Positions 15,628-31,569 of a DNA stretch of 36,822 nt are shown here, piece after piece (the first letter of the stretch is position 1; every line of letters starts with the position of its first letter). The position numbers and the translations under genes were made by a program. This DNA is from Candidatus Margulisiibacteriota bacterium. Lineage in GTDB: Bacteria > Margulisbacteria > WOR-1 > O2-12-FULL-45-9 > XYB2-FULL-48-7. The notes below the pieces were generated by a model that had not been told where the DNA came from, did no database searches, and was given only the letters and a program-made list of their open reading frames with translations. The stretch spans positions 1-36,822 of the forward strand of contig JAHJKL010000085.1 in NCBI GenBank assembly GCA_018822365.1, in the 5' to 3' direction.

Positions 15628-16920
15628 TTAAAAGACTGTTTTCAACCCTAATTGCGCGATCGAAGACGCAATCACCCCTCCGGCCAATCGATATTTCAAT
15701 TCCAGCATGGAATATGCCGATAATTTATTCCCCAGGGTCAATTCCGCTATCTGATTGGATCCGGGGCCGACCTGGTCTCCGGCTAATAATAGATAATAAT
15801 TGTTGAATTCATGCCAATAGCGGAAACCAAGCTCATACGCCCCGTCGCTTAAGGGGTGGCTGAAAGTATCGTAGATCGGATAATAGCCTTCTCCCCGATG
15901 CAGGCCGCCGATCTTTTGTCCGATCAGGGTCAGTTTGTTCCAGAGAGACAATTCTCCTTTGAAATACAAACCTTGATCAAAATCGGTCAGACGGCCAGCT
16001 CCGATAAGCAGTTCATAGCGCAGGTTGGCGGTCGGCGCGGCTCTAACGGTCAGGTCAAAATGAGCGGCTTTCCGCTCGCCGTTAACGAACAACCTGGGAT
16101 TAATCCCCACCTTAAATCCGCGAAAGTTTTGCAAAAGCGGAAAAGAGAGCTCTTCTTCTGAGACCAGACCGGTCGGATCACTGCTCCTTGCCAGATATTC
16201 CACCCCAAAAGCGGTATTGCGGTAGCTGGTCGCGAGTTTAACCCCTCTTTTCAACCGTCGATAAACTGTTCCATTTTCTGATGGAAAAAGGGGATCACTT
16301 AAATGGACAACATCCCCCGGCCCGGAACTAACGGTCAAGGTCGACCCGTTGAATTTTATCCACCCTTCAACGGCCAGCAGCTCCCTCACCAGATCGCGCT
16401 GGGCATTGTTGAACCCGCTATCCATCGAATCAAAGCCGATCTTCAGTCCGGAACTTTCATCAAACTTCTGGTCCAGGTCCAAAGCCAGGCGGTAGCTGAA
16501 CTGGCTATTGGAGGCTCCCCCAACCTGCCCCGATCTGACCTCACCGTCCATCATCCCTCTAAAAGAAAAGAGGTTTTCTTTTTTGGGAATTTTCAGCAAA
16601 TTCACCTCGGCGCGGAGCTCGGCCAAAAGCTTTTCATGTTCGGCCTGGAGCTTGTCTTCGGCGGTCTCGAATTTGGTTAAAAAGGCCGCCCCCTCGTAGC
16701 GCGAAAGCGGTTTATGCCCCTGATAAGTATCGTCGGGAAATCCTTTGGTCACTCCAAGCTCAAGCAGCCGGGCAACCGCGCCATAAGCATAGTGCCCATA
16801 AGGGACATCTTTTAGCCGATAAACATCACCGTCGTCAGAAAAAGCAAAAACAGAAGGGACGGGCAACAACAAGAACGGGGAGAGCATCAGAAAAATAATT
16901 GTCAGTTTTTTTATCATCAC
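15628..16920 (-). CDS. SLH-domain outer-membrane porin-like protein (OmpM type), copy 1
   Basis: 430 residues with a signal peptide (about 1-26, ending SVFA). One SLH domain follows (about 36-90: VPYGHYAYGAVARLLELGVT, GFPDDTYQGHKPLSRYEGAA), then a coiled coil (ETAEDKLQAEHEKLLAELRA) and a barrel domain with many alternating strands ending in ...GLKTVF. The architecture matches the gene at 14142-15518, indicating an old tandem duplication. Its ATG ATG start overlaps the TGA of the upstream glycosyltransferase, so the two are translationally coupled. This puts a cell-envelope glycolipid enzyme and an outer-membrane tether in one transcript. No Shine-Dalgarno is obvious. Confidence 0.84.
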   Translation of the reverse strand: MMIKKLTIIFLMLSPFLLLPVPSVFAFSDDGDVYRLKDVPYGHYAYGAVARLLELGVTKGFPDDTYQGHKPLSRYEGAAFLTKFETAEDKLQAEHEKLLAELRAEVNLLKIPKKENLFSFRGMMDGEVRSGQVGGASNSQFSYRLALDLDQKFDESSGLKIGFDSMDSGFNNAQRDLVRELLAVEGWIKFNGSTLTVSSGPGDVVHLSDPLFPSENGTVYRRLKRGVKLATSYRNTAFGVEYLARSSDPTGLVSEEELSFPLLQNFRGFKVGINPRLFVNGERKAAHFDLTVRAAPTANLRYELLIGAGRLTDFDQGLYFKGELSLWNKLTLIGQKIGGLHRGEGYYPIYDTFSHPLSDGAYELGFRYWHEFNNYYLLLAGDQVGPGSNQIAELTLGNKLSAYSMLELKYRLAGGVIASSIAQLGLKTVF

Positions 16921-18014
16921 AAATATTTAAATATCTCTTTCGCGATCCCCAGCGCCGCATCAGGTTTGCTGACCCGTTTAATGTTTTTTTTCATTGCCTC
17001 ATATTCGCCGTTGGTCCTGATCCGATTGACCAGATCAACCACTTTTTTGGGGTCCTTGCTGACTTTGCCAACCTTTTCCTTGACGACATAATCAACATTC
17101 CCTTCTTCCTGCCCCGGCAGCCATGAAGTAATGATGATCGGCAGGTTTTTTGCCAGGGCTTCAGCGATCGTTCCCGGCCCTGCTTTGGTAATGATCAGGT
17201 CCGATCTTCCCATGACTTCAGGGACCTGGTCGGTAAAGCCAATCACCTCAAGCTCAAAGCTGAACCTGGCAGACTTTTTTTTCAGCTCTTCTTCCAGGCT
17301 TTTGTTGCGCCCGCAGATCGCGATCAGCCGCCCGTTAAAGCGGGCCCGGTCAAATTCTTTGATGATCTCCCCCATTTTGCCGGCACCTTCGCCCCCCCCC
17401 ATTAATAAAATGGTAAACTTGTCCTCTTTGGTTCGTTTATTCTTCTGGGCCAGGAGAAATTTTGGGTCTATCGGCATGCCGATCACTTTAACTTTGTTCT
17501 CCGGCATGCCGTAGGTAATGGCATTCCGGCGCGCCTCTTTTGTCCCGACTATCACCAGATCGGTCTCCGGCTTGATCCAGGCCCGATGCAAAGTGACCGG
17601 ATCGGTAATGACCACAACGAACGGGATCTTCAGCCCGCTCGCCCGGATCGCCTGAACGGTCAAATGATTGACCATGGGATGGACCGAAACGATCAGCTCC
17701 GGCCGGCGGACCACGATCAGCTTGGTCAGTTCTTTTAGAATGAAAGGCCGCGAGATCTTTTCCAGCTGGGCCAGCTTTTTCTGGTCGTCAAGCCAGTAAT
17801 ACAGCATCCCCCAAAGTTCCGGAGAATATTTAATGACCGGGGCATAGAGCCTGGCAAAAACATTGAGGAAGCCCGAGCACTGGGCAAACGCGTCGACCAT
17901 TTCCTGGTTAAAACGGCCCGGCTTCAGCTGCTCAACCGCTTTGATTATGGCGTTGACGGCGGAACGGTGGCCTCCGCCGGTATCGGAAAAAAGATAGAGG
18001 ACCTTCTTTTTCAT
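16917..18014 (-). CDS. Diacylglycerol glycosyltransferase-like protein (MGDG synthase/UgtP family, MurG-like fold)
   Basis: GT28-type enzyme of about 365 residues. It starts KKKVLYLFSDTGGGHRSA, where the GGGHR loop is the hallmark of MGDG synthases and processive diacylglycerol glucosyltransferases. It continues with SVHPMVNHL, VVVITDPVTLHRAWI, the hinge LLMGGGEGAGKM and the nucleotide-sugar site DLIITKAGPGTIAEALA. It probably adds a hexose to diacylglycerol at the inner membrane. A frame open to 18116 would overlap the divergent promoter; the extended -10 at 18025-18033 means ATG 18014 must be the start. That ATG is 11 nt from the -10 box and has no ribosome site, so the message is probably leaderless. 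Confidence 0.83.
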   Translation of the reverse strand: MKKKVLYLFSDTGGGHRSAVNAIIKAVEQLKPGRFNQEMVDAFAQCSGFLNVFARLYAPVIKYSPELWGMLYYWLDDQKKLAQLEKISRPFILKELTKLIVVRRPELIVSVHPMVNHLTVQAIRASGLKIPFVVVITDPVTLHRAWIKPETDLVIVGTKEARRNAITYGMPENKVKVIGMPIDPKFLLAQKNKRTKEDKFTILLMGGGEGAGKMGEIIKEFDRARFNGRLIAICGRNKSLEEELKKKSARFSFELEVIGFTDQVPEVMGRSDLIITKAGPGTIAEALAKNLPIIITSWLPGQEEGNVDYVVKEKVGKVSKDPKKVVDLVNRIRTNGEYEAMKKNIKRVSKPDAALGIAKEIFKYL

Positions 18015-18024
18015 GATCGGTCGC

Positions 18025-18033
18025 ATTATAACA
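18025..18033 (-). promoter_or_regulatory. Extended -10 promoter (TGTTATAAT) for the glycosyltransferase operon
   Basis: TATATGTTATAAT on the minus strand, ending 10 nt before the ATG at 18014. Motif and spacing are identical to those before the receiver gene at 9250. It lies in the divergent gap to the histidine kinase at 18090, where a weaker plus-strand TAAAAT at 18066-18071 may serve the kinase. Confidence 0.62.
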
Positions 18034-18089
18034 TATAGCGACTTGTAATAATATCGCGGCCAATGTAAAATTCTTGCAAGCTCATAAAC

Positions 18090-19601
18090 ATGAAAATTAA
18101 AATTGAAAAGCTTCAAGCTTATATCGCCATTAAATGGGGATTGGTCCTGATCTCTTCTCCGGCGTTAATCTTCGGCTTATTGATCGGGGGAGTGTCGGCC
18201 GCAGAGTTCTTGTTCCTTTCCTTGCTGCTTATTTTAAGTTCCGCGATAAACTTCTACCTGTTTTATTTGGAGCGGAAGACCGACTTCTCCAGAAAAAGAT
18301 TGTACGCGCCTGTGTTCTTTGATATTTTTCTGATCATTCTCGCGATCAATTACAGCGGGGGGATCGAAAGCGGCTGGCTCTATCTTCCGGCGGTCTTTAT
18401 TTTGGTCGTCAGCATGATCTTTCCTCTTTATCAAAGCCTCGCTTACACTGCCTTTGCCTACCTGCTCTTGGTCGCCCTTTTTCTGGCGCAATATTTCAAT
18501 GTTATGCCGCATCATGCGATGATCTCAGGCCTGCAGCTCCCCTGGCGCGCCCAAGGCTTTTTTGTCGACCGGTTGTCCAGTTATTTCGCTCTTTATTTTT
18601 TAACCGCTTTAGCCGGCAGCCTGCTGAACCGGCAGATCGAGAAAGGACTGCAGCAGGCAACCCTCTCCCAGACAGAATCGGAAAACTCCAGGCGGGCGCT
18701 GATGAACATCGCCAGCGACCTGAAAAGCGCCCAACAAGATCTGGAGTCCAGGGTTAAAGAACGGACCGCTTCGCTGGAAAAAATAAAAGCCGAGCTGGAA
18801 CTCAAGGTCAGAGCCAGGACAGCCGACCTGGAAAACAGCCGAAAAGCGATCCTGCACATGATGAAAGACCTGAAAGAAGACATCAAAAAACTGCGAGAAG
18901 TCGACCAGATCAAAACCGAGTTCCTCTCCATGATCTCCCACGAACTGCGGACCCCCCTCACCCTGATCAAAGGATACGTCTCGCTCCTTCTGGCAGGAAA
19001 GATCGGGCCCCTTTCGTCCGAACAGATGAAAACGGTCAATATTGTCGCCCGACAAGGGGAGCACCTGCAGACCATGATCGAAAGCATCCTCGATATTTCA
19101 CGGCTTGAGATCGGCAAACCGATCCCTTTAATCAAGGCCCCGATGTCAATCAAGCTTACTCTGGAAAGAACGATCGAAGCGATAAAACTGCAGGCCGACG
19201 AAAAGAAGATCGAGCTGGCAGCGGATATCTCCGGTTTTCTCCCCACGATCATCGGCGATGAGACCAAGATCAAACGGCTCTTTATTAACATCCTGGGGAA
19301 CGCACTGAAGTTCACCCCCGAAGGTGGAAAGATCACAGTAAACGCCTTTGTTGATGATTCCCAGGTGAAGGTAGAAGTGATCGACAACGGGATCGGCATC
19401 AGCCAGGAAAACTTGGGGAAATTATTTGAAAAGTTCTTTCAGGCGGACAGCTCAATTACCCGAACAGCCGGCGGAATGGGAATGGGACTGGCGATCGCCA
19501 AGGAACTGGTCGAACTGCACGGCGGTAAAATTAAAGCTGAATCGGCCGGGCCCGGAAAGGGAAGCAAATTTACCTTTTCCCTGCCGATCAATTCTTTATA
19601 G
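18090..19601 (+). CDS. Membrane sensor histidine kinase
   Basis: 503 residues. About six membrane helices (14-180) with no large outer domain form the sensor. A coiled coil (about 190-270) with two repeated RVKERTASLE / KVRARTADLE blocks leads to the HisKA domain (FLSMISHELRTPLTLIKGY, phospho-His 284). The HATPase domain follows, with N box GNALKFTPEGG, G1 VIDNGIGIS, F box EKFFQAD and G2 GMGMGLAIAK. The receiver it phosphorylates is not adjacent. It is the first of three plus-strand genes with 10-nt and 9-nt gaps (kinase, KAS III, kinase). No ribosome site is clear before ATG 18090. Confidence 0.92.
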   Translation: MKIKIEKLQAYIAIKWGLVLISSPALIFGLLIGGVSAAEFLFLSLLLILSSAINFYLFYLERKTDFSRKRLYAPVFFDIFLIILAINYSGGIESGWLYLPAVFILVVSMIFPLYQSLAYTAFAYLLLVALFLAQYFNVMPHHAMISGLQLPWRAQGFFVDRLSSYFALYFLTALAGSLLNRQIEKGLQQATLSQTESENSRRALMNIASDLKSAQQDLESRVKERTASLEKIKAELELKVRARTADLENSRKAILHMMKDLKEDIKKLREVDQIKTEFLSMISHELRTPLTLIKGYVSLLLAGKIGPLSSEQMKTVNIVARQGEHLQTMIESILDISRLEIGKPIPLIKAPMSIKLTLERTIEAIKLQADEKKIELAADISGFLPTIIGDETKIKRLFINILGNALKFTPEGGKITVNAFVDDSQVKVEVIDNGIGISQENLGKLFEKFFQADSSITRTAGGMGMGLAIAKELVELHGGKIKAESAGPGKGSKFTFSLPINSL

Positions 19602-19611
19602 GAAGGGAAAC

Positions 19612-20604
19612 ATGACATCCACGATCCTGCCGGTTGAGGTCCTTGGAACAGGTTATTATGTTCCACCCAATATCGTCACCAATCATGATTACGAGTTGAA
19701 GTACGGCGTCTCCCCGGAATGGATCAAACAGGTGACCGGGGTTGAAAAAAGGCATATCGCCACCCCCGACCTGGCCTGCTCCGACCTGGCCCGCCCGGCG
19801 GCCGAGCTCGCCCTCAAGAATGCCGGGCTGGGCCCCGAAGAGATCGACCTGATCATCCTGACCTCAATGGGACCGGACTTTGCCTCTCCCCCGACATCCG
19901 CCATTGTCCAGGGGCAGATTGGCGCGATCAACGCCGGCGCGTTCGACCTTGACTGCGCCTGCCTCGGTTTCCCCTGGGCCTTTTTTGTCGCCGCCAACCT
20001 GATCAATTCAGGCGGGTTCAACAAGATCATGCTTATCAGCTCCGAGCTCGGCTCGCGCTGTTCCAATTATAACGACCCCAACAGTTTTGTTCTGCTGGGT
20101 GACGGGGCCGGGGCGGCGATCATCGGGAAAAGTCGCGGCCAGGGTAAAGGAATTCTCTCCCATTATTTTAAAACTGACGGCAAACAGGCCGACGTCGCTT
20201 CGATCAGGGCCTGGGGATCGCGTCATTCACGCCTGACCCCGGAAGAGATAGACAACTTTGCCTTCAACATGCAAGGAAAAAAGATCTATAAATTCGCGAC
20301 CGCGGCCCTGCCGGAAGTCATCGATAAGCTTGTCGGACTGGCCAAGATCGCCAAGTCCGAACTTTCCCTGGTGATCCCCCACCAGGCCAACCGCCGTATT
20401 ATAGAAGCGGCCAGAAAAAGAAGCGGCTTGCCCGAGGAATCTTTTTTCATTAATATTCAGGATTTTGGCAACACCGGATCGGCGACCATTGCCATTGCCT
20501 TTGCTCAAGCAGCGGAACAGCAGCGGCTCATCCCCGGCAAGAAAATTATCCTGGCCGGCTTTGGCGCCGGACTTTCCTGGGGAGGGATCCTTGTTCAAAC
20601 TTAA
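19612..20604 (+). CDS. 3-oxoacyl-ACP synthase III-like condensing enzyme (FabH/thiolase fold)
   Basis: 330 residues with the complete KAS III triad: Cys in DLDCACLGF, His in VIPHQAN and Asn in FGNTGSA. The start is LPVEVLGTGYYVPPNIVTN and the C-terminal LAGFGAGLSWGG is typical. KAS III enzymes load an acyl-CoA and extend it with malonyl-ACP; relatives make signalling lipids, alkylquinolones or secondary metabolites. ATG 19612 follows a GGAAGGG ribosome site. A longer frame back to 19426 lies inside the kinase gene and is not used. It lies between two sensor kinases with no other fatty-acid genes nearby, so a role other than housekeeping FabH is likely but unproven. Confidence 0.88.
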   Translation: MTSTILPVEVLGTGYYVPPNIVTNHDYELKYGVSPEWIKQVTGVEKRHIATPDLACSDLARPAAELALKNAGLGPEEIDLIILTSMGPDFASPPTSAIVQGQIGAINAGAFDLDCACLGFPWAFFVAANLINSGGFNKIMLISSELGSRCSNYNDPNSFVLLGDGAGAAIIGKSRGQGKGILSHYFKTDGKQADVASIRAWGSRHSRLTPEEIDNFAFNMQGKKIYKFATAALPEVIDKLVGLAKIAKSELSLVIPHQANRRIIEAARKRSGLPEESFFINIQDFGNTGSATIAIAFAQAAEQQRLIPGKKIILAGFGAGLSWGGILVQT

Positions 20605-20613
20605 GGAGAAACA

Positions 20614-23067
20614 ATGGGACATTATTTGACCACCTTTTTTTCCGGACTGATAACCCTCTCCCTGGGAATATTTGTCTTTTATTTTTCCACCAATAAAGAC
20701 ATCAAGCCCAAGTTCCTTGTTTTCTGCTTAGCGATCGCCGGCTGGAATTTTGCCGGCAGCATCATGGAATTCCAGGTTCATCGTCACATCGTTCCTTTTC
20801 TCGCCTCAAGAATAAGCATCGCTTTCGCTTCTCTGGTTTTTCCCGCCTTCCTGGACTTTGTCTTTTCCTTTCCCAAAAAAGATGACGATCAGAAAAAAAC
20901 TTATTTTATTTATCTTTTTTATCTTTTAGGGGTTATTTCCGCCGTCATCTCCTTAACTTCTGGTTATGTTCAACAGTTCATCTTTGACCAAGGAGGAGGG
21001 GTCCTGCGGGTCTTCCGGCCCAGCTTCTTATATTTTGTCCTATTTGCCATTGCCAGCCTTTTATACGGCTTATATCTGCTGGTCAAAAAATACCTGGCGG
21101 TTAGAAGCCGGGCTGACCGCTCGCGCCTGAATTATCTGATACTGGGGATCGCTTCGGGTTTTTCTTTTGCCGTTATTTTCAGCATCATTCTGCCGACCAT
21201 AAAGATAAACCGCTTCTTTTATTTAGGGGAGCTTGGCCCGCTCGCTTTTGTCGGCCTCACCACTTACGGCATCTTAAAGTACCGTTTGATGAACATTGTA
21301 CTGGTGCTCAAAAAAACTACCGCTTATTCCCTGATCACCACCGGGATAACCTTCATCTATTTAGCGCTCATCATCTCTTTTGAAATGCTGTTCCGGAGCA
21401 TTTATTCCGGACAGTATTCGATCTGGATGGCCCTGCCGGCAGCGCTGGTCATCGCTATCACTTTTATTCCGATGCGCAATTACTTTCAGGGGATAACCGA
21501 CCAGCTCTTTTTCCGCCAATCCATTGAATACCGCAAGATCCTCCGGGAAGTGACCCACGCCATCTCTTCGGTCACCGACCTTAAGGTCCTCTTTCGGCTC
21601 ATTGACCAGACGGTGGTCAGGGTAATGTGCATTAAAACCGTTTCGGTCCTGTTGCTGGAAGAAAAACAGGGCCATTATGTGGTAGAAAAGACCAACGGCT
21701 TGCCTAAAACGTTTGAAGGGGTCTCTTTGAAGAAAGACAACCCTCTTATTGTTTACCTGAACGAGATTAAAGAGCCTGTCCGGCTCGATGAATTACGGGA
21801 ACAATTCTATGACCAGCCAGGCAAAGAAGAAAGGGGAAAACTGGCGGAGATCATTAAAGAACTGGAAAATCTTTCCTCGGCGGTTGCGGTCCCCTCTTTC
21901 GTTAAAAACAGGCTGGTTGGCGTATTAACGCTGGGAGAAAAATTGTCCGAAGAACCGTACAACCAGGAAGATATTGAATTGATCTCAACCATGGCCTCGG
22001 AAGCCGGGATTGCCATCGAGAACGCCAAGCTCTACCGCGACATCGTCGAAACCAAGGATTATCTCAATTCAATCATCCAAAACAGCGACGACGCGATCTT
22101 CACCCTCGATCTGGACGGCACCGTCCTCACCTGGAATTCCGGAGCGGAAAAGATCTTCGGCCGCCCTCCGGTCTTCCTTAGCCAAAGCGAAACCCAGGAG
22201 TTTGTCGGCCGGATCAGCGCCGGAGAAGAAATCAAGGCGCTCGAGGTCGGAATCAACACCAGAGAGAGGGGCCGGGTCGATCTGCTATTGTCCTGCTCTC
22301 CCATCAAGGGGGCCGAGGAAAAAATGATCGGCGCCTCCCTGATCCTCAAAGATATCAGCGGGCTCAAAAAAGTCGACCAGACCAAGCGGGAATTTCTCTC
22401 TATCGTCAGCCACGAACTCCGCACCCCCCTCACCCCGATCAAAGGATATGTCTCCATCCTTCTCCAGGGGAATATCGGCCCGCTGGAACCACGCCAAAAA
22501 AACGCCCTAGAAACAGTCCTTAAGAACACCAATCACTTGCAGGATCTGATCGAATCGATCATCGACATCTCCCGCCTTGAGGCCGGCAAGCCCCTGGAAA
22601 CCGAGAAGGAACCTTTCTTTTTGGAAAAAATGATCAAAGAGAGCGTCGATAACGCCGCCCCTTCTTTCACCGCCAAGGGGATCGGCCTTTCTTTTGATCA
22701 TCACGACGGGGACATCGCGGTGATCGGCGACCGGAAGAAAATAACCCAGGTCATGGACAATCTCCTCGGCAATTCCTTGAAATTTACTCCGGCCGGAGGA
22801 GCGGTCAAAGTCACCATGAACCGAGAAGAAGGGGGCGTCAGGATTACCGTCTCTGATACCGGGATTGGACTGGACGGAAAAAATCTTTTTAAAATATTCG
22901 AGCGTTTCTTCCAGGTAGACAGCTCATATACCAGGGCGACCGGCGGGATCGGCATGGGACTGGCGATTGCTAAAGAGGTCGTGGAAGCGCACGGGGGACG
23001 AATCTGGGCGGAATCGGAAGGACCGGGACATGGATCGAAATTTATTTTTACCCTGCCGCTTAGTTAA
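20614..23067 (+). CDS. Membrane sensor histidine kinase with GAF and PAS domains
   Basis: 817 residues. About eight N-terminal helices (5-290) of the 7TM-sensor kinase type, then a GAF domain (about 310-475, IELISTMASEAGIAIENAKL at its end). A PAS domain follows (about 483-590, SIIQNSDDAIFTLDLDGTVL, WNSGAEKIFG), then HisKA (FLSIVSHELRTPLTPIKGY, His 600) and HATPase (GNSLKFTPAGG, SDTGIGLD, GIGMGLAIAK). Its kinase half is very like that of the kinase at 18090, suggesting a duplication, while the sensor halves differ. An AAGGAG site precedes the ATG. The 3' end overlaps the convergent epimerase by 4 bases. Confidence 0.93.
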   Translation: MGHYLTTFFSGLITLSLGIFVFYFSTNKDIKPKFLVFCLAIAGWNFAGSIMEFQVHRHIVPFLASRISIAFASLVFPAFLDFVFSFPKKDDDQKKTYFIYLFYLLGVISAVISLTSGYVQQFIFDQGGGVLRVFRPSFLYFVLFAIASLLYGLYLLVKKYLAVRSRADRSRLNYLILGIASGFSFAVIFSIILPTIKINRFFYLGELGPLAFVGLTTYGILKYRLMNIVLVLKKTTAYSLITTGITFIYLALIISFEMLFRSIYSGQYSIWMALPAALVIAITFIPMRNYFQGITDQLFFRQSIEYRKILREVTHAISSVTDLKVLFRLIDQTVVRVMCIKTVSVLLLEEKQGHYVVEKTNGLPKTFEGVSLKKDNPLIVYLNEIKEPVRLDELREQFYDQPGKEERGKLAEIIKELENLSSAVAVPSFVKNRLVGVLTLGEKLSEEPYNQEDIELISTMASEAGIAIENAKLYRDIVETKDYLNSIIQNSDDAIFTLDLDGTVLTWNSGAEKIFGRPPVFLSQSETQEFVGRISAGEEIKALEVGINTRERGRVDLLLSCSPIKGAEEKMIGASLILKDISGLKKVDQTKREFLSIVSHELRTPLTPIKGYVSILLQGNIGPLEPRQKNALETVLKNTNHLQDLIESIIDISRLEAGKPLETEKEPFFLEKMIKESVDNAAPSFTAKGIGLSFDHHDGDIAVIGDRKKITQVMDNLLGNSLKFTPAGGAVKVTMNREEGGVRITVSDTGIGLDGKNLFKIFERFFQVDSSYTRATGGIGMGLAIAKEVVEAHGGRIWAESEGPGHGSKFIFTLPLS

Positions 23068-23981
23068 GCGTAATACCAGGCGACCGTTCGCTTCAACCCT
23101 TCTTTAATATCGCAGGCGGCTTGCCAGTTAAGTTCTTTTTTGGCCAGGCGGCAGTCAAGGACACTGCGAAAAAGCTCGCCCGCCCGCGGCGGGGCGTAAA
23201 CGGCCGCTTGATCAAATTTGAACTGCTCTTTTAGAATACCATAAAGCTGGTTGACCGATGTCCCTACCCCGGTCCCAATGTTAAATAACCGGTTATCCCC
23301 TTTTGTTAAAGCGATGAGATTGGCTCTGGCAACCTCTCCAACATAAATATAATCCCGTAATTGCTCACCGTCGCCATAGATCGTCGGGACTTCTTTCTTT
23401 TTTATTTTCCCGCAGAAAATAGCGATCACCCCGGCTTCTCCCAGCGGGTCCTGGCGCGGGCCATAGACATTGCCGTAACGGAGGACCGTATATTTTAAAC
23501 CATAAAGCTGTGAATAAGCGTGCAGATACATCTCAACCGAGCGCTTAGTGATCGCGTAAGGGGAGATCGGCTCCATGGGGTGGTCTTCCGCCGCCCCGTT
23601 TGGTTCTTTGACCTCGCCGTAAAGAGCTCCGCCGGTCGATGAAAAGATAATTTTTCCGACCTTAGCGTCCCGGGCGGCGTTAAGGAGGTTGAGCGTCCCA
23701 AGTTCGTTTATTTCAGCGTTAAAGATCGGGTCAGTGACCGATTTTCTGACATCGATCTGGGCCGCCAGATGGTTGATCAATTCCGGCTTGAAATCAGCAA
23801 TTATCCCGGAGAGGGCCTGGTCCCGCAGATCATTCTGAAAAAAAACCGCTTTGGGGTTGAGGTTCTCCTTCTTGCCGGTCGAAATATTATCCAGGACAGC
23901 AACTTCATGCCCAGCGTCTAGATAACAGTCGACTATGTTTGAGCCGATAAATCCGGCCCCTCCGGTAACCAGGATCCTCAT
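23064..23981 (-). CDS. NAD-dependent sugar-nucleotide epimerase (UDP-glucose 4-epimerase-like)
   Basis: 305-residue extended short-chain dehydrogenase. NAD site GGAGFIGS at the N-terminus, HLAAQIDVRKSV, catalytic Ser region IIFSSTGGALYG, active YAITK (Tyr-x-x-x-Lys), RYGNVYGPRQDP and the C-terminal sugar-binding part. Closest in pattern to GalE and related UDP-hexose 4-epimerases; other NDP-sugar epimerases cannot be ruled out. It is the last gene of the tight operon, its ATG overlapping the TGA of the GT4 gene. It probably supplies the activated sugar used by that glycosyltransferase. Confidence 0.9.
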   Translation of the reverse strand: MRILVTGGAGFIGSNIVDCYLDAGHEVAVLDNISTGKKENLNPKAVFFQNDLRDQALSGIIADFKPELINHLAAQIDVRKSVTDPIFNAEINELGTLNLLNAARDAKVGKIIFSSTGGALYGEVKEPNGAAEDHPMEPISPYAITKRSVEMYLHAYSQLYGLKYTVLRYGNVYGPRQDPLGEAGVIAIFCGKIKKKEVPTIYGDGEQLRDYIYVGEVARANLIALTKGDNRLFNIGTGVGTSVNQLYGILKEQFKFDQAAVYAPPRAGELFRSVLDCRLAKKELNWQAACDIKEGLKRTVAWYYA

Positions 23982-25141
23982 TTATTTTTTTTCGCCAAAA
24001 GTTCGTTGTAGATCCCTATGACTTGTTGAACGATGGTCTTCCAGCTGTATTTGGTCTCGACCTGCTGGCGGCCGTGGCGTCCCATCGCCTTGGCTTTTTC
24101 CGGATCGGCCAGGATCTGGCAGATCGCGGCGGCCAGCGCGTCAGGGTCCTGTTTAGGCACAAGCAAGCCGGACTGGCCGACATCCATTACGGCGTTCGGG
24201 CCAGGGATATCGGAGGCGACAATCGCGGTGTAGTTAGCCATCGCTTCCAGCTGGACGATCCCAAAAGCTTCCAGCCGATTGATCGACGGAAAAATGTAAG
24301 CGATCGAAGTGTAATAGAGCTCGACCAATTTGTCAAAGGTCGCCGTTCCCAGGAAAGTGATCGCCGGACCAATATTAAATTGGGTCACCAGGTCTAAAAT
24401 ATGGGCCTTCTCTTCCCCATCGCCGCAAATGACCAGCTTGGTGTCAGGGAATTTTTCCAGCACTTTTGGCATCGCCTTAACCAGATAATCGCACCCCTTG
24501 TTCCCCGCCAACCGGCCAAGAAAAAGGATCTGCCGGGGATTTTTCTTGTCCGGCGTCAGATTAAGTTTTTTCTGTATCTCGTCGATCTTATCGGAAAATA
24601 TCCCGATCGGAATAACTTTGTGCGGAACATTTTTCATGACCGGCGAGGTTGAGGCGTAGGTTTCGGTCGTATTGTAGATCGTGTCCGCCTTGGCCAACAG
24701 CATCCTGGCGTAAAGGTTATTGGCCCCCTCAAATAACGGGACAAGCCATTGCGGAACAGGAACGCCGAAATACTTTTCCGAAACAGTAACGTCGCAATGG
24801 TAGGTCACGATCAAAGGCTGCTTGATCTTGCCGGCGACCGAACGGAGAAAGCTGAAAGCCGGCACGTGAACGTGAACGATATCGAAGCCTTCCAGCATTT
24901 TCAGGTTGAATTGGGTGCTGACCGGCAGATAACTGAACATATCGACCGCGTCAAGCCGGATAACTTTGATCCCTTCCGGCAGTGTTTCCCGGGCCGGCGC
25001 GTTCTTGGCTTTGGGCAAATTATTGGTGATGACCGTTACCTCGTGACCTTCTTTGATCAGCGCGGTGGAAAGATCCCGGACATATTTCTCGGTACCGCCG
25101 GTGTGAGGGAAAAAATACGGGGAAAGCATCACGATCTTCAT
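23978..25141 (-). CDS. Glycosyltransferase family 4
   Basis: 387 residues from ATG 25141, which has an AGGAG site 8 nt upstream; longer in-frame starts lie inside the radical SAM gene. GT-B fold: N-terminal half MKIVMLSPYFFPHTGGTEKY with the glycine loop and DIVHVHVPAFSF. The C-terminal donor-binding half has ILFLGRLAGNKGCDYL, LVICGDGEEKAHI and the E-x7-E region INRLEAFGIVQLEAMA. Retaining sugar transfer to a lipid or glycan acceptor in the cytosol is expected. It overlaps the radical SAM stop by 4 bases (ATGA) and the epimerase start by 4, so the three are probably made together. Confidence 0.92.
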   Translation of the reverse strand: MKIVMLSPYFFPHTGGTEKYVRDLSTALIKEGHEVTVITNNLPKAKNAPARETLPEGIKVIRLDAVDMFSYLPVSTQFNLKMLEGFDIVHVHVPAFSFLRSVAGKIKQPLIVTYHCDVTVSEKYFGVPVPQWLVPLFEGANNLYARMLLAKADTIYNTTETYASTSPVMKNVPHKVIPIGIFSDKIDEIQKKLNLTPDKKNPRQILFLGRLAGNKGCDYLVKAMPKVLEKFPDTKLVICGDGEEKAHILDLVTQFNIGPAITFLGTATFDKLVELYYTSIAYIFPSINRLEAFGIVQLEAMANYTAIVASDIPGPNAVMDVGQSGLLVPKQDPDALAAAICQILADPEKAKAMGRHGRQQVETKYSWKTIVQQVIGIYNELLAKKNK

Positions 25142-26010
25142 ATATTTGCTCCTTTTCGCCAAGCGTCGAATCTCGAATACAGATTCAACCAATAGTAGCG
25201 ATCCGGCCTTTGGCTAAAGGATGGTAACATATACGGCCAGCGCATGCAAGACGAGCAGGCCGCTTCCCGACCCTGCCGTCCTCCCCGATTGTAAAAACAG
25301 GGTTTAACGAACTGCCCATCGGGCATGACGGTCAAGGTCGTCTCTTCGGCCAAACAGCGGGGGAAAATCAGATTATTCCCGCCCCGCTTGATAAATTCCA
25401 GCGCTGCCCGGTTGACCAAAACATGCTTCCGCCTGGCAAAATACAAAATATGGGCAATGGTCACTTTCTCAAAACCCTGTGTCCCATAATAATCATAGAC
25501 CGGGGAAAGATTTAAATATACCCCCAGCCTTTTTGCCAAATCAACCATTTCCGGAAGGAAACGGACGCTGTCCCTGGTCATGGTATATTGAATGATCGCG
25601 GTTTCCCCAAGGCTTCTGGCATATTCGATCGCCGGCACGACCTGGTTAAAGCATTCCACTCCCCGGCTCCGATCGTGTTCTTCCATGATCGGATAATCAA
25701 GCGCAAAATATATGGCATGCGCCAACCCTTTCAGCTCCCGGCCGACTTCCTGGTAAAGGATCCCGTTGGTCATTAAACCGACCCAAAAATTATTTTTTCG
25801 CCCCTGACGCAATATTTCCGGCAGGTCGGCCCGCAGCAGCGGCTCCCCTCCGGTAATAAAAACTTTTCTCCCTCCCCGGATCCGCATTTCCCTGAATATT
25901 TTCTCATGGTCGGTCGTTTCAACGAACTGCTCCTGTTCCGTCCAAACACGGCAAAACTCGCAGGCATCGTTACAGCGCAGGGTTATATAATAATTGCAGG
26001 TTTTTGACAT
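25138..26010 (-). CDS. Radical SAM enzyme with SPASM-like C-terminal cysteines
   Basis: 290 residues. The iron-sulphur motif CNDACEFC (C13, C17, C20) and the SAM-binding GGEPLLR (54-60) define the radical SAM core. A C-terminal cluster of cysteines (C219, C238, C252, C255; pattern C-x18-C-x13-C-x2-C with MPDGQFVKPCFYN) resembles SPASM or twitch auxiliary iron-sulphur domains, which occur in peptide-modifying and some sugar- or cofactor-modifying enzymes. The start follows directly on the stop codon of the 79-residue coiled-coil gene, with the glycosyltransferase overlapping downstream. The substrate is unknown; the small upstream protein and a glycan precursor are both candidates. Confidence 0.87.
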   Translation of the reverse strand: MSKTCNYYITLRCNDACEFCRVWTEQEQFVETTDHEKIFREMRIRGGRKVFITGGEPLLRADLPEILRQGRKNNFWVGLMTNGILYQEVGRELKGLAHAIYFALDYPIMEEHDRSRGVECFNQVVPAIEYARSLGETAIIQYTMTRDSVRFLPEMVDLAKRLGVYLNLSPVYDYYGTQGFEKVTIAHILYFARRKHVLVNRAALEFIKRGGNNLIFPRCLAEETTLTVMPDGQFVKPCFYNRGGRQGREAACSSCMRWPYMLPSFSQRPDRYYWLNLYSRFDAWRKGANI

Positions 26011-26250
26011 CTAATCTAAACAGCACTTTTTTTGGCGCTCGATCTTCAGCTTGAGCCGGCCAAGCTCGGTGATCGCTTCTTTCTCCCGCAGTTGGATCTC
26101 CAGTTTAATGGCAACCAGCTCCGCCTCCGCTTCTCTGTCCCCAAGATTTTTTTCCCAGGTCTCGCGCCAATGCTCTTTTGTCCGCTTAAGTTTGTTTAAA
26201 ACCCTCCGGCGGAGGCATTCAAAAGAGAATTCCAGTTCAGTTATCCCCAT
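26011..26250 (-). CDS. Small charged coiled-coil protein, unknown function
   Basis: 79 residues, rich in Glu, Lys, Arg and Leu, with a long heptad-like helix (about 15-74, AELVAIKLEIQLREKEAITE) and no signal peptide or membrane segment. Cysteines are at 12, 76 and 77, the last two in a C-terminal KKCCLD. Its ATG shares a base with the MFS stop (TGATG) and its stop abuts the radical SAM ATG, which strongly supports a real, translated gene despite its size. No family recognised. Its place next to a radical SAM/SPASM-like enzyme and an exporter makes it a possible substrate or partner of that enzyme; a structural or adaptor role is just as open. Confidence 0.7.
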   Translation of the reverse strand: MGITELEFSFECLRRRVLNKLKRTKEHWRETWEKNLGDREAEAELVAIKLEIQLREKEAITELGRLKLKIERQKKCCLD

Positions 26251-27452
26251 CAGGCGCGCCTTAATTTCGGCAGGAGAACGCCGATCACCCCGACCAAAAG
26301 AAGGGCCCAGCCAAGCATCGCCATCGAATTAGTTATCCCGGCCAGATCGGCGATCCAGCCAAATAATACGACCGGGAGAGTAAAAGCGGAATTGACCAGC
26401 ATATTTTGCACGCCGAAGACCCGCCCCCTGATCTGCCGCGGGATCCGATGTTGTAAGATGGTCTGAATCGTCGAGGTAATATAAATATTGCCGACCCCGA
26501 GCAGGGTGATCAAGACCAAGGCCAGGCGCAGATCTTTGACCATGGCCAGCCAAACGATCAGTCCGCCGGAAAGAAGAAAGCTCGCGGTCACGATCGTTCC
26601 CATCTTTAAGAAATACCTGATCCGCTCCAGGGTGAACATCCCGATCAGCATGCCGACCCCGACCGCGATGATCAGATAGCCAAAATTCCTCTCGCCGATC
26701 TTTAACACATCCCCGGCATATGAGATCGCCAGCAGCGACAGGGTGGCAATGGCCGAAGCGGCGGCAAAAAGCTGGATCAGGGAAAAACGGACCACTCCAT
26801 GACGGCGAATAAATTCAAAGCCGACCAGAAGATCTTTGCAAACATGGCTTTTCCCCGCGGTTGGCCTGGAGCGGATGGGGATCAGCATAACCGCGGTCGC
26901 CGAAATAAAGTAAAGGGCCGCGGAAACAATAAGGGTGTTTTTTTCCGCAAAAAGGTTGACGATCGGCGCACCCAAGCCAAAGCCGACGACCGAGCTTGCC
27001 ATCCAGGTCATCATGAACAGGGCATTGGCGATGATCAGGTTGTGTTTATCGACAAGCTCCGGGATCGAAGAGGTTTCGGCCGGGGCAAAGAATTGCGCCA
27101 TGGTATAAAGTAAAAGGCTGATCAGGAAGATCAGCTGGAGCGGCGCCGTCAGAAAAGGGATGATCAGCAAGGTCAGCAGGCCGCGCAGCAGGGCGGTCAC
27201 GACCAGGATCCCCTTCCGGTCAAGGCGGTCGACCAGGACCCCGGCCCAGGGGCCAACCAGGACCGACGGAATGCCAAAGGCCAGAAGCGGCAGGGAGACC
27301 CCAAGGTTAGAGCGGGTTTGCTGGTAAATGATGATCATCAGAACATAAACAAATATCCGGTCGGCCAGCTGAGAGGTCAGCTGCCCAAGCCATAAGAGCA
27401 TAAAGCCCAAATTAGAAAAGATCACGCCAAACCCGGTCTTTTTTTCTACCAT
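26250..27452 (-). CDS. Major facilitator superfamily transporter (EntS/MFS_3-like exporter)
   Basis: 400 residues with about 12 hydrophobic helices. Family marks: WLGQLTSQLADRIFVYVL in helix 1, the loop 2-3 motif GVLVDRLDRKG (equivalent to the conserved GxxxDRxxR) and RGRVFGVQNMLVNSAFTLP in the second half. These match proton-driven drug/siderophore exporters of the EntS/MFS_3 group. Its start overlaps recO by 7 nt and its stop overlaps the 79-residue gene. The cargo is unknown, but operon partners (radical SAM, glycosyltransferase, epimerase) suggest export of a small modified product or a glycan precursor. Confidence 0.9.
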   Translation of the reverse strand: MVEKKTGFGVIFSNLGFMLLWLGQLTSQLADRIFVYVLMIIIYQQTRSNLGVSLPLLAFGIPSVLVGPWAGVLVDRLDRKGILVVTALLRGLLTLLIIPFLTAPLQLIFLISLLLYTMAQFFAPAETSSIPELVDKHNLIIANALFMMTWMASSVVGFGLGAPIVNLFAEKNTLIVSAALYFISATAVMLIPIRSRPTAGKSHVCKDLLVGFEFIRRHGVVRFSLIQLFAAASAIATLSLLAISYAGDVLKIGERNFGYLIIAVGVGMLIGMFTLERIRYFLKMGTIVTASFLLSGGLIVWLAMVKDLRLALVLITLLGVGNIYITSTIQTILQHRIPRQIRGRVFGVQNMLVNSAFTLPVVLFGWIADLAGITNSMAMLGWALLLVGVIGVLLPKLRRA

Positions 27453-27952
27453 TCTCTGATATCTCTCCCCACATGATCGCTAATGCAGTATTTTGGATCA
27501 AACCCTTCCCGGAAGATCCCCTCGATCCGCAAGAACGCTTTTTCAAATTCTACCACAACCCTGGGCGCGTCGGTCTTTTCTTTTAACCGCCAGAGCCCGG
27601 CCAAGAGCAGGTCAAATAATTCCGGATTGGGCTGCCCTTCGGCGGTTGACGCGTCGATCAGGCGGAGAAAGTAAAATCCCGCCTTCAAGCCGGCAGGATC
27701 GTCCCGGACGACCTGGAAAGACTCCAAAACTTCGCATTGCGAGACGATATCGAGCGAACGTCCCTTGGCCAGAAAGTAGTCGGCATAGCTGAAGGTTTCG
27801 ACCCGCCCGCCAAACCGGGACGGGATCCGCCTCGCCCCTTTGGCCAAAACCCGGATCTTGCCGTGCTCCCTGGAAAAGAGGGTCACCAGCTTGTCGGCTT
27901 CGGCAAACGGCTTGTTCCTTATGCTGATCGCTTTTGTTTTATAGGCAGGCAT
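27446..27952 (-). CDS. recO: DNA repair protein RecO, C-terminally short
   Basis: 168 residues, against about 230-250 in most RecO proteins. The OB-fold N-domain is intact (KAISIRNKPFAEADKLVTLF, GKIRVLAKGARRIPSRFGG, YADYFLAKGRSLDIVSQCEV), followed by part of the helical domain (FYFLRLIDAS, FEKAFLRIEGI). The protein stops after FDPKYCISDHVGRDIREW, where the zinc-finger region would normally follow, so only one Cys remains. It may still anneal ssDNA and bind SSB/RecR, or it may be decaying. It starts 34 nt inside the upstream kinase gene and overlaps the MFS gene, an unusual company for recO. Confidence 0.85.
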   Translation of the reverse strand: MPAYKTKAISIRNKPFAEADKLVTLFSREHGKIRVLAKGARRIPSRFGGRVETFSYADYFLAKGRSLDIVSQCEVLESFQVVRDDPAGLKAGFYFLRLIDASTAEGQPNPELFDLLLAGLWRLKEKTDAPRVVVEFEKAFLRIEGIFREGFDPKYCISDHVGRDIREW

Positions 27953-29517
27953 ATTTTAAAAGTTGTCCCTTCTCCCAGGCGGCTGGAAACCCCGATCTCT
28001 CCGCCATGCTCATGAACGATCCGATAAGTGACCGCCAACCCCAGCCCGGTCCCCCACCCTTTGGTAGTAAAGAACGGATCAAAAATAAGCGCCAGTTTAT
28101 CGGCCGGGATCCCGGCGCCCGTGTCGGCGATCTCAACCACCGCCTTCTCTCCGGCAAGAGCGGAGCGGATCTTCAGTGTCCCTCCCTGGCGCATTGACTG
28201 GACCGCGTTCAAACAAATATTCAACACCGCCTGGCTAAAACGCTCCGGATCAAGTTCAACCAATAGAGCCGGCAACGGCTCAAGTTCGATCCTGATCTTC
28301 CGTCCCTGGCACTCCCGCGAAAGCAGTTTGAGCGTCTCTTCAAGCAATCCATTAAGATCTGTTTTTCGAAAATTCATTTTACCAGGCCGGCCAAAGGCGA
28401 GCAAATCATCGACTATCTTATTGATCCGGTCAAGCTGGCGCGGCACGATCTCGCTATAGTCGGCCATGAACCGCCGGTCCTTTATATTTTCCGGCAGGAC
28501 CTGGGTCAACCCTTTGATCGCCGCCAGGGGGTTCTTGATCTCGTGCGCCATACCGGCCGCCATGGTCCCCAGAGCGGCCAGCTTGTCGTTCTCCGCCGAC
28601 AGGTCTTTGATCTTTTTTAAGTAATAATATTCTCCCCGGAAAAACAGGCGGTCGATAAATTTCTGGATCAGGTCGCGCAGGGGCTGAAAGATAATAACGG
28701 AAATAAAAACCGCGCCCGCCAAAGCGACCCAATTACTGATACGCGCGACCCTGGAAAAATAATAGTTCAGCAGGATCAGGGAAAGGGAGAAAAATCCGGT
28801 AAAAAGAAAGGTCAGAGAGGAATAGACCAACCCTTCGAACAAAATAACATTAATATCAAATAATTTATGGCGGACGACCGCATAAAGGATCAGCGCCAGA
28901 TAAAGCGGCATAAAGTAATGGCTGATCACCGGCAGGTCGAGGCGGACAATAGGAAAAAAGGCGGTCATCCCCCCCAGAAAACCGATCAGCGAGGCAAGAA
29001 GAACATATTTGGCCTGGTTATTTTTTTCTCCCACGTTTGACCGGAGATATTTTACCAGTTTTATAAAACCGACGATAAATAATAAGATCACATACGCGCC
29101 AAAAAATGGATAAACCGGCCCCGGGACCGGATAATAGCGAAGGCCAAAGATCGGGGCAACATCAACAACAAAATAACTGGTCAGATCAAACAGCAGAAAG
29201 GTCAGCGCGGCCATTGAGGCAAGCCCAAGCATCAATCGCCCTTTTTTCCATTCTCCAATAAAAGCGGCAACAAAACAAATAAAAAAAAGAGGGATCAGGA
29301 TCGCGCCGCCAATATTAACCCTGGTCCAAAAAAGGACCTCCCCCCGGCCGGAAACAACCCCTCCCATAAATTGGCCAAAGCACCAGACCCCGATCGCCAG
29401 TGACATCATGGCCAGGGTAAGATTGACTATTTTGTCTCTGCCAAAAATGATCGCGGCCAAACCGAGCAGGAACGAAATAATAGAAACCAACAAAACCGAA
29501 GCGGTGTTAAATTCCAT
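27919..29517 (-). CDS. Membrane sensor histidine kinase of NtrB/PrsK-like type
   Basis: 532 residues. About eight N-terminal helices (5-280) resemble the 7TM sensor kinase group, ending with FQPLRDLIQKFIDRLFFRGE. This region has the same layout as the equivalent part of the kinase at 20614 but has no GAF or PAS after it. HisKA: AAGMAHEIKNPLAAIKGL (His 325), the NtrB-like HEIKNPL variant. HATPase: CLNAVQSM, IADTGAGIP and GTGLGLAVTY. It is divergent from the NtrC-type regulator at 29686 and is very probably its partner. The start lies 7 nt from an extended -10 (TGATAAAAT) with no ribosome site. It heads a seven-gene overlapping operon. Confidence 0.92.
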   Translation of the reverse strand: MEFNTASVLLVSIISFLLGLAAIIFGRDKIVNLTLAMMSLAIGVWCFGQFMGGVVSGRGEVLFWTRVNIGGAILIPLFFICFVAAFIGEWKKGRLMLGLASMAALTFLLFDLTSYFVVDVAPIFGLRYYPVPGPVYPFFGAYVILLFIVGFIKLVKYLRSNVGEKNNQAKYVLLASLIGFLGGMTAFFPIVRLDLPVISHYFMPLYLALILYAVVRHKLFDINVILFEGLVYSSLTFLFTGFFSLSLILLNYYFSRVARISNWVALAGAVFISVIIFQPLRDLIQKFIDRLFFRGEYYYLKKIKDLSAENDKLAALGTMAAGMAHEIKNPLAAIKGLTQVLPENIKDRRFMADYSEIVPRQLDRINKIVDDLLAFGRPGKMNFRKTDLNGLLEETLKLLSRECQGRKIRIELEPLPALLVELDPERFSQAVLNICLNAVQSMRQGGTLKIRSALAGEKAVVEIADTGAGIPADKLALIFDPFFTTKGWGTGLGLAVTYRIVHEHGGEIGVSSRLGEGTTFKICLPIKQKRSA

Positions 29518-29587: not shown

Positions 29588-29603
29588 TGACGAATTCTCG
29601 TCA
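29588..29603. promoter_or_regulatory. Dyad TGACGA-N4-TCGTCA, possible activator-binding site
   Basis: Perfect 6-bp arms with a 4-nt spacer, 41 nt upstream of the sigma-54 -24 element. The position and symmetry suit an enhancer site for the NtrC-type protein encoded downstream. A further CACTCTT (29602-29608) / AAGAGTG (29636-29642) pair lies next to it. Confidence 0.4.
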
Positions 29604-29644: not shown

Positions 29645-29660
29645 TGGCAATACAATTGCT
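29645..29660 (+). promoter_or_regulatory. Sigma-54 (RpoN) promoter for the NtrC-type regulator
   Basis: TGGCAATACAATTGCT has the invariant GG and GC with the required 10-nt separation and TTGC at -12. Predicted transcription start is about 29671, just before the AAGGAG ribosome site (29674-29679) and ATG 29686. The regulator is probably self-activated. Confidence 0.75.
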
Positions 29661-29685: not shown

Positions 29686-31026
29686 ATGAAAACATATTCA
29701 ATTTTGGCTATCGATGATGAAAAAGACATGCTTACGACCTACGAATCGATCCTGAAAAAAAAGTACCACCTCTCTCTGGCTGGAAACGCGAATGAAGCGT
29801 TAATATCGATCGAGAGCAGCGAACCGGACCTTATCCTGCTTGATCTGCGCATGCCCGAAACGGACGGACTTGATTTACTAAAACAGATCCATCCCCGCTT
29901 TCCTGAAATCGATATTATTGTCGTTTCGGCTTCCAAAGATATTATTGACGCCGTTGAAGCAATGAAGCTGGGCGCGGTCGACTACATCCCAAAACCGTTT
30001 GAAGTCAGCGAACTTCTGATCACGGTCGAAAAAGCGCTGGAAAAGCACGCCCTGATCAAAGAAAATTTATATCTCAAAGAAATGCTCAAGGAATCCACTT
30101 CTTACTGCAACCTGATCGGCCAAAGCCAGGTAATGAAGCGGGTTTTTGGCACGATCGAAAAAGTGGCCCCGACCGAAAGCACCATCCTGATCCACGGCGA
30201 ATCCGGGACCGGCAAGGAGCTGGTCGCCCGGGCGATCCACCAGAAAAGCCGCCGCGCCAATAAGCCATTTGTCGCGGTCAATTGCGCCGCGATCCCGGAG
30301 AACCTATTGGAGTCGGAACTTTTTGGCCACGAACGGGGCTCATTTACCGGAGCGCATGACCGCAAGCTTGGCAAGTTTGAGCTGGCCGACGAAGGGACCC
30401 TCTTTCTGGACGAGATAGGCTGCATGTCGGCCGCCATGCAATCCAAGCTGCTCCGGGTCCTGGAACACAAGATCATTGAACGGCTGGGAGGAGAAAAAGG
30501 GGTCAAGGTCGACGTCAGGATCATTTCCGCGACCAATATCGATTTCCAAAAAAGTATTGATGAAGGGAAATTCCGCGCCGACCTTTATTACCGGCTCAAC
30601 GTTATTCCGGTCGAACTCCCCCCGCTCCGGGAGAGAAAAGATGACCTCCGCCTTTTAGCGGAATTCTTTATAAAAAAATTCAACAAAGAGCTTAATAAAA
30701 AGATCCTTGCTATCGCCGAGCCCGCGCTGGATGACCTGGATAACTATGACTGGCCGGGGAATGTCCGTGAACTGCAAAACGTCATTGAACGGGCGATCGT
30801 GCTGTCATCCGGCGAAATAATTGAAGAACTTAACCTGCCAACGGGAAAAGGAATGACCAAACCAGCCGCAGCAAGCAGCATCAATAAAACCCTTGCCGAA
30901 TATGAAAAAGAGCTGATCCTGGAAGCTTTGCGCGCCAGCAAAAACAACCATTCCAAAGCGGCCCGCCAGCTGGGGATCCCCCGCTCCACCCTTAATTCCC
31001 GGATGGAATCGCTGGGGCTTGGTTAG
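29686..31026 (+). CDS. Sigma-54-dependent response regulator (NtrC family)
   Basis: 446 residues in the standard order. Receiver domain (1-120; ILAIDDEKDM, phospho-Asp 53 in LILLDLRMPETD, KPFEVSE). AAA+ domain (about 140-370): Walker A HGESGTGKE, the sigma-54 contact loop ERGSFTGAHD (GSFTGA variant of GAFTGA), Walker B EGTLFLDEIG and the arginine region FRADLYYRLNVIPVELPPLR. C-terminal Fis-type HTH (NNHSKAARQLGIPRSTLNSR). It activates RNA polymerase with RpoN. Strong AAGGAG site. Divergent from the kinase at 29517, its likely partner, and driven by its own sigma-54 promoter. Targets are unknown; no second good RpoN site was noticed in the window. Confidence 0.95.
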   Translation: MKTYSILAIDDEKDMLTTYESILKKKYHLSLAGNANEALISIESSEPDLILLDLRMPETDGLDLLKQIHPRFPEIDIIVVSASKDIIDAVEAMKLGAVDYIPKPFEVSELLITVEKALEKHALIKENLYLKEMLKESTSYCNLIGQSQVMKRVFGTIEKVAPTESTILIHGESGTGKELVARAIHQKSRRANKPFVAVNCAAIPENLLESELFGHERGSFTGAHDRKLGKFELADEGTLFLDEIGCMSAAMQSKLLRVLEHKIIERLGGEKGVKVDVRIISATNIDFQKSIDEGKFRADLYYRLNVIPVELPPLRERKDDLRLLAEFFIKKFNKELNKKILAIAEPALDDLDNYDWPGNVRELQNVIERAIVLSSGEIIEELNLPTGKGMTKPAAASSINKTLAEYEKELILEALRASKNNHSKAARQLGIPRSTLNSRMESLGLG

Positions 31027-31101: not shown

Positions 31102-31569
31102 ATGGAAAACAAACCGAAACGTAAAATAATTAGAGTGAAGGACTTTGATTATGCCACCGCAAGGCCTTATTTCATAACGATCTGCGCCAAAGACAAAAAG
31201 CCCTATTTTCTCAATAAACATTTAAACAATTTAATTATTAAGGAACTATTGGAACAAAAGAAAAAAACAAATATTAATATTTTCGTTTATTGTCTAATGC
31301 CAAATCATCTTCATTTATTATTAGCTCCAGGGGCAAAAGAAATATCGATTTCAACTTTTATCGGTGCCTTTAAAAGCTTAACTTCTAGGATTGCCTGGGA
31401 TTTTGGGGTTTCCGGCAAATTATGGCAAAAGCGGTTTTATGATCGTATTGTAAGAAAAAAAGAAGACTTAGAAACTATCGGACAATATATATTGAATAAT
31501 CCGGTTAGACAAACATTGGTATCCAAGTGGCAGGACTATGAATTTCTTGGATTACCTGATAGTTGGTAA
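31102..31569 (+). CDS. REP-associated tyrosine transposase (RAYT, Y1/HUH family)
   Basis: 155 residues. Single Y1-transposase domain: FITICAKDKKPYF, HUH motif PNHLHLLL (His 69, His 71), FIGAFKSLTSRIA, WQKRFYDRIVR and the helix with GQYILNNPVR, in which Tyr 129 matches the catalytic tyrosine of E. coli TnpA-REP. These proteins cut and join single-stranded DNA at REP hairpins. The gene is markedly AT-rich compared with the GC-balanced genes around it, pointing to recent arrival. It lies between two inverted REP hairpins and a 27-bp duplication. No Shine-Dalgarno is obvious before ATG 31102. No stop or lesion is seen, so it may be active. Confidence 0.92.
   Translation: MENKPKRKIIRVKDFDYATARPYFITICAKDKKPYFLNKHLNNLIIKELLEQKKKTNINIFVYCLMPNHLHLLLAPGAKEISISTFIGAFKSLTSRIAWDFGVSGKLWQKRFYDRIVRKKEDLETIGQYILNNPVRQTLVSKWQDYEFLGLPDSW

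Follow-up and report, generated by a model that had tools for sequence, protein, structure and literature searches.

Linkage of a radical SAM gene with a GT4 glycosyltransferase gene in the WOR-1/Saganbacteria class, and repeated loss of its radical-cluster motif

Gene organization of the locus

WOR-1/Saganbacteria are an uncultured lineage near Cyanobacteria. We analyzed contig JAHJKL010000085.1 (36,822 nucleotides (nts); hereafter the window), which is contig C85 of the 88-contig, 1.68 Mb genome of a Candidatus Margulisiibacteriota bacterium of this lineage, and in particular a minus-strand run of seven open reading frames (ORFs) at 23064-29517, in which a radical S-adenosylmethionine (SAM) gene is directly followed by a glycosyltransferase gene. 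The run opens with a 7TM histidine kinase (27919-29517; HisKA_7TM, HisKA and HATPase_c matches) and continues with a short RecO of 168 amino acids (aa) (27446-27952), which matches RecO_N in full and RecO_C over only 63 of 157 positions, a major facilitator superfamily (MFS) exporter of the 2A0121/MFS_3 type (26250-27452), a 79-aa protein (26011-26250), a twitch-type radical SAM protein (25138-26010), a GT4 glycosyltransferase (23978-25141) and a GalE-like SDR nucleotide-sugar epimerase (23064-23981). Successive genes overlap or abut by 34, 7, 1, 0, 4 and 4 nts, and six of the seven products gave clear family matches, the 79-aa protein being the exception.

A preliminary description of this DNA had listed the same seven genes, and all of the ORFs were found on the minus strand with their gene names correct. 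Its operon range, 25138-29517, omits the GT4 and epimerase genes. The exporter, which it called EntS-type, is an MFS exporter, but the EntS model scored only 97 bits against a cut-off of 324, and the best match (TIGR00900) is also below its cut-off. RecO is 168 aa long in most relatives in the class too, and stops about one third into the RecO_C domain.

Domains and fold of the radical SAM protein

Radical SAM enzymes form the largest known enzyme superfamily (PMC9012708). The window protein has the radical-cluster motif CX3CX2C intact (C13, C17 and C20; PF04055, E = 4.6e-17) and GGEP at residues 54-57. Its structure model (predicted local distance difference test 90.7, predicted template modeling (TM) score 0.89) consists of alternating strands and helices, as required of a partial TIM barrel. 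The radical SAM core begins at residue 3 (first strand 3-8) and the Pfam match at residue 8, leaving no N-terminal extension, and a recognition element (RRE) for ribosomally synthesized and post-translationally modified peptides (RiPPs), or another peptide-recognition domain, was found neither on the protein nor among the Pfam matches of its neighbors.

The C-terminal region has four Cys residues, C219, C238, C252 and C255, with a Gly between the first two and with the C-x18-C-x13-C-x2-C spacing given in the preliminary description. These four are invariant in 28 of the 28 aligned orthologues and stand in the order expected for a twitch domain, where a beta-hairpin is flanked by one Cys on each side and two more come after a helix; in BtrN, the four Cys of this domain fully ligate the auxiliary cluster (PMC9012708, PMC6231123). 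The seven-Cys SPASM motif, CX9-15GX4C-gap-CX2CX5CX3C-gap-C (PMC6231123), was not found, as only four Cys are conserved. The earlier term SPASM-like is therefore loose, and the four residues fit a BtrN-like twitch domain rather than SPASM, with cluster binding as a prediction. BtrN and other twitch enzymes share with the window protein a compact build, in which a radical SAM core is joined to a short four-Cys C-terminal domain without a peptide-binding domain (PMC9012708, PMC6231123), and BtrN acts on a sugar-like cyclitol. Unlike BtrN, the window protein has other partner genes and some members of its family have no radical cluster, and no BtrN structure was significant among the PDB matches.

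BlsE, a cytosylglucuronate decarboxylase that acts on a sugar nucleoside (PDB 7vob), was the top match in both the profile search of the PDB (E = 8e-13) and the fold search (E = 1.4e-14, TM 0.66), followed by SuiB, MoaA, SkfB, PqqE, viperin and DesII; AbmM also matched. The profile alignment with BlsE is confined to the core (residues 13-146), however, and the fold alignment is 16% identical; no NCBIfam match came near the BlsE cut-off, and no blasticidin-type genes are present in the window. The best NCBIfam match was TIGR03961 (PTO1314 family radical SAM) over residues 11-239, at 73.9 bits against a cut-off of 306, a model that NCBI lists as a hypothetical equivalog and to which it assigns no function. 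TIGR04347, the pseudo-type radical SAM/SPASM homologue of NCBI, matched at 27-65 bits; its cut-off is 525, which excludes membership, and the window family differs in that it mixes intact and Cys-less orthologues in one class, so that the loss can be traced on a tree. Identity with MoaA was rejected (best model 65 bits against 325, core only), as was a viperin (pVip) defense function (match limited to core residues 5-106; NCBIfam 40 bits against 180), and a viral origin judged by fold was set aside since the matches were those of radical SAM proteins in general.

Distribution and linkage with GT4

For comparison, we used 74 Margulisbacteria genomes, 31 of the WOR-1/Saganbacteria class and 43 others of the phylum, one per species, all of them assemblies of uncultured organisms and mostly draft; the E-value thresholds for class membership were set by us. 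The radical SAM orthologue is present in 29 of the 31 class genomes and in 0 of the 43 others (E<=1e-30), and GT4 is likewise present in 29 of the 31 and in none outside the class (E<=1e-60). The exceptions are explained in part by contig ends and incomplete genomes: the radical SAM gene of G006 is at a contig end, and G015, which is 84% complete, lacks both genes. The two genes adjoin in 26 of the 27 loci with both ends visible. The usual order is kinase-recO-exporter-radical SAM-GT4, with the exporter preceding the radical SAM gene in most class members, and the epimerase then follows in about half of the class, often in families f1 and f2. This order is kept across families at 45-60% protein identity. 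GT4 itself, whose best PDB match is PimA, is 76-96% identical in families f1, f7 and f8 and 52-67% identical in the remaining class. In family f2, a glycosyltransferase resembling monogalactosyldiacylglycerol (MGDG) synthase and diglucosyl-diacylglycerol synthase is located directly 3′ of the epimerase; its window counterpart (16917-18116, minus strand) is separated from the epimerase by a plus-strand block at 18090-23067.

In GTDB records, the nearest orthologues of the radical SAM protein belong to WOR-1 (Saganbacteria) or Margulisiibacteriota genomes. A search of GTDB contigs beyond the class returned only radical SAM proteins of about 24-35% identity, and a GT4-like ORF was found near a single non-WOR-1 locus, as a weak match about 5 kb away. 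No literature on this radical SAM gene family was found among open-licence papers, and a Saganbacteria paper (PMC6349859) has no mention of radical SAM or glycosyltransferases.

Two further arrangements were observed around GT4. At four f7/f8 loci (L164, L168, L169 and L171), a DUF4015 gene is convergent to GT4 and takes the place of the epimerase. In G010, a 592-aa ORF that by eye resembles a YgiQ-type radical SAM protein is located directly 5′ of GT4 (L176:9332-11110).

Loss of the radical-cluster motif

Cys residues of CX3CX2C are replaced in five of the 28 aligned orthologues (S-C-S in G011, S-C-D in G069, T-C-S in G070, T-Y-S in G071 and S-P-S in G064), and the other 23 keep all three Cys and GGEP. 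All five Cys-less orthologues have open frames and four of four auxiliary Cys. On a tree built with the motif region left out, three changes are the parsimony minimum for the loss. A single common loss for all five was rejected by the approximately unbiased (AU) test (p-AU 8e-5), a single loss shared by f1 and f8 was likewise rejected, and a joint loss in f5 and f8 was weakly rejected (p 0.025). These results point to independent losses of the motif, at least two as a safe minimum and probably three.

The substitution rates were compared between G011 and the intact genome G012 of the same genus, giving a nonsynonymous rate (dN) of 0.14 and a synonymous rate (dS) of 0.93, a ratio of about 0.15, while the ratio between two intact genera was about 0.18. 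Because the G011 ratio is no higher than that between intact relatives, selection is not relaxed in G011. In f8 and f5, dS has reached saturation, so that the evidence there comes solely from the open frames and the conserved residues. As a control, all radical SAM matches in G011 and G071 were inspected: 48 of 49 keep C-x2..9-C-x2-C and the exception is the G011 orthologue, the Cys-less orthologue of G071 being below Pfam detection (not registered at E<=0.001). Therefore, the loss is specific to the GT4-linked radical SAM family.

Selection on a protein without the radical site, and with the auxiliary site and the GT4 neighbor retained, suggests a second, non-radical role of the radical SAM protein; in the Cys-less lineages the protein may serve GT4 structurally or as a regulator. 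The radical cluster was lost repeatedly and, as the comparison of G011 with G012 indicates, recently at least once, and the auxiliary site was never lost. The role of radical SAM auxiliary clusters has been hard to demonstrate, and these natural orthologues allow a direct test of what the auxiliary domain, and a radical SAM pseudoenzyme, does. Open-licence papers yielded nothing relevant on orthologous families in which some members have lost CX3CX2C.

The 79-aa protein and the exporter/radical SAM junction

The 79-aa ORF is coding, since dN/dS against the same-genus genome G018 is 0.15 and the differences at the three codon positions are 9/10/29. The C-terminal half, including the KKCCLD ending correctly reported before, is near-identical in both genomes of the window's genus, and the protein is predicted to form two long helices (3-34 and 39-78), a helical hairpin. 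No homology to a known family was detected by sequence or fold in Pfam, NCBIfam, PHROGs, PADLOC or PDB (E<=0.001), and there was no match in plasmids. Among the 74 genomes, the gene is found at this locus only in the two of the window's genus. The sole other relative, in G069, is 32% identical and has neither the Cys tail nor a radical SAM neighbor. There, overlapping small genes for a DUF3006 protein and the 79-aa relative (L182:6968-7448) are located directly 3′ of a gene that is FtsW-like by eye.

No related small ORF was found 5′ of the radical SAM gene in other genomes. In 13 loci the exporter stop is located -4 to +55 nts from the radical SAM start, with a 4-nt overlap in eight, and at most of the remaining junctions something unrelated has been inserted, such as a methyltransferase in G017 or, in G072, a formylglycine-enzyme-like domain. 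The simplest reading is that this junction is insertion-prone and that the 79-aa gene was gained in one genus. On this view, the 79-aa gene was inserted recently and in one lineage only, and its product is neither a conserved partner nor the defining peptide substrate of the enzyme. In G011, the same junction (L047:8737-11236) contains genes for a HaeII-type restriction endonuclease, a cytosine methylase and a Vsr endonuclease.

Proposed function and alternative explanations

On balance, we consider it somewhat probable that the block is an envelope glycoconjugate or glycolipid operon specific to the WOR-1/Saganbacteria class, with the twitch-type radical SAM protein and GT4 as its core. The preliminary description had proposed either a modified exported peptide or a glycolipid, and the second half of this proposal agrees with the order-conserved exporter, radical SAM, GT4 and epimerase genes and, in part of the class, the diglucosyl-diacylglycerol/MGDG-synthase-like glycosyltransferase. 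A sugar-type substrate of the radical SAM protein is favored because of its sugar and lipid-sugar neighbors, the BlsE-like matches, the lack of a peptide domain and the twitch-type Cys. With both Fe-S sites intact in the window's organism, the substrate of the enzyme there would be a sugar, nucleotide-sugar or lipid-linked sugar that GT4 produces or consumes, and the four-Cys auxiliary cluster would accept an electron, by analogy with what has been proposed for BtrN. The epimerase may provide the sugar nucleotide, with transport of the lipid or product as the possible task of the MFS protein. In the Cys-less lineages, on the simplest view, the protein would be kept as a structural partner of GT4. 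The locus resembles membrane glycolipid pathways (diglucosyl-diacylglycerol synthase, MGDG synthase, PimA) in having a GT4 with a PimA match, a GT28, a GalE-like epimerase and a conserved order, but no protein passes the curated cut-off of a characterized enzyme, and no described glycolipid pathway with a radical SAM partner was found in the literature searched. The conserved block suggests an envelope sugar pathway that is common to the whole of this uncultured class.

Several observations weigh against such an operon. G010 has GT4, the epimerase and the lipid-type glycosyltransferase, seemingly without a radical SAM orthologue, and G063 has its radical SAM gene and GT4 on separate contigs. 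Only some class members have the epimerase and lipid glycosyltransferase beside the radical SAM/GT4 pair, and the f7/f8 neighbors differ, the DUF4015 gene being for a putative glycosyl hydrolase. By fold, the protein matches radical SAM enzymes at large (TM about 0.66), peptide maturases among them, and no curated functional family was reached. In addition, the linkage of recO and the kinase shows that position alone is no proof of a shared pathway. These two genes have no obvious sugar link and tight packing is common in the genome, as would be expected if this were a chance housekeeping neighborhood with enzymes of separate pathways; we regard this explanation as improbable, because the order survives at 45-60% protein identity despite repeated inserts at the junction and because the radical SAM and GT4 genes have a common phylogenetic range.

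The Cys-less orthologues raise other possibilities. The protein may be a near-obligate partner of GT4 whose conserved role is non-radical, the auxiliary site and barrel forming or regulating a glycosyltransferase complex; repeated loss of the radical cluster would then leave the gene in place. We hold this only tentatively; if true, the family would offer natural before-and-after pairs of radical enzyme and pseudoenzyme. That all members work without radical chemistry, as a metal-site scaffold or chaperone of GT4 with an optional or vestigial radical cluster, seems unlikely. Three parsimony events in five genomes with the single clade rejected and the auxiliary Cys complete, the ratio in G011 being no faster than in intact relatives, and the motif retained in 48 of 49 control matches all agree with it, but three Cys and GGEP in 23 of 28 are hard to reconcile with idle radical chemistry everywhere. 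Alternatively, the Cys-less lineages may have dropped the radical reaction or passed it to another radical SAM protein, with the remaining protein heading for loss. The YgiQ-like ORF next to the GT4 kept in G010, which lacks the orthologue, and another radical SAM gene adjoining the Cys-less one in G071 would fit, but in all five copies the frames are open, selection is purifying and the auxiliary Cys are invariant, and we consider such decay rather improbable. Much the least probable is a RiPP-type system, in which the radical SAM protein would modify a 79-aa precursor near its CC tail and the MFS protein would export it. The tight order of exporter, small gene and radical SAM gene, the coding nature of the small gene with its near-identical KKCCLD-containing half in both genus members, and the frequent use of peptide substrates by twitch and SPASM enzymes speak for it. 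Against these, 29 of the 31 class genomes carry the radical SAM gene but only two have the small gene at this locus, leaving 27 with the enzyme alone, the outcome that the preliminary description had named as refuting its proposal; the only other relative of the small protein is Cys-less and located beside ftsW and DUF3006, away from any radical SAM gene; a full-length two-helix hairpin leaves no free core; the enzyme has no RRE-like N-terminal domain; and other genomes have no related upstream ORF. The precursor-peptide reading of the 79-aa protein was rejected, and the modified exported peptide is not supported.

Regulatory elements upstream of the divergent response regulator

Divergent from the run is a gene for an NtrC-type sigma-54 response regulator (29686-31026, plus strand; family matches). 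A sigma-54-type -24/-12 element, TGGCAATACAATTGCT (29645-29660, plus strand), is located 41 nts 5′ of this gene and points to it, and about 56 nts farther upstream is the palindrome TGACGAATTCTCGTCA (29588-29603, strandless), a possible activator site and the sole exact TGACGA-N4-TCGTCA in the genome. Similar -24/-12 elements are found in five relatives (L055, L056, L167, L170 and L173), and inverted repeats accompany the element in the window, L055, L056 and L170. The two-mismatch promoter pattern occurs at chance level in the window; the argument for the element is therefore its position and its reappearance in relatives. Together, the element and palindrome suggest autoregulation by a self-activating regulator. 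Two-component control of the operon, proposed earlier, does not follow from them: both sit 5′ of the divergent gene, and sigma-54 control of the operon was rejected because the element is oriented to the response regulator. A REP-associated tyrosine transposase (Y1/IS200-like) gene at 31102-31569 adjoins the response regulator gene.

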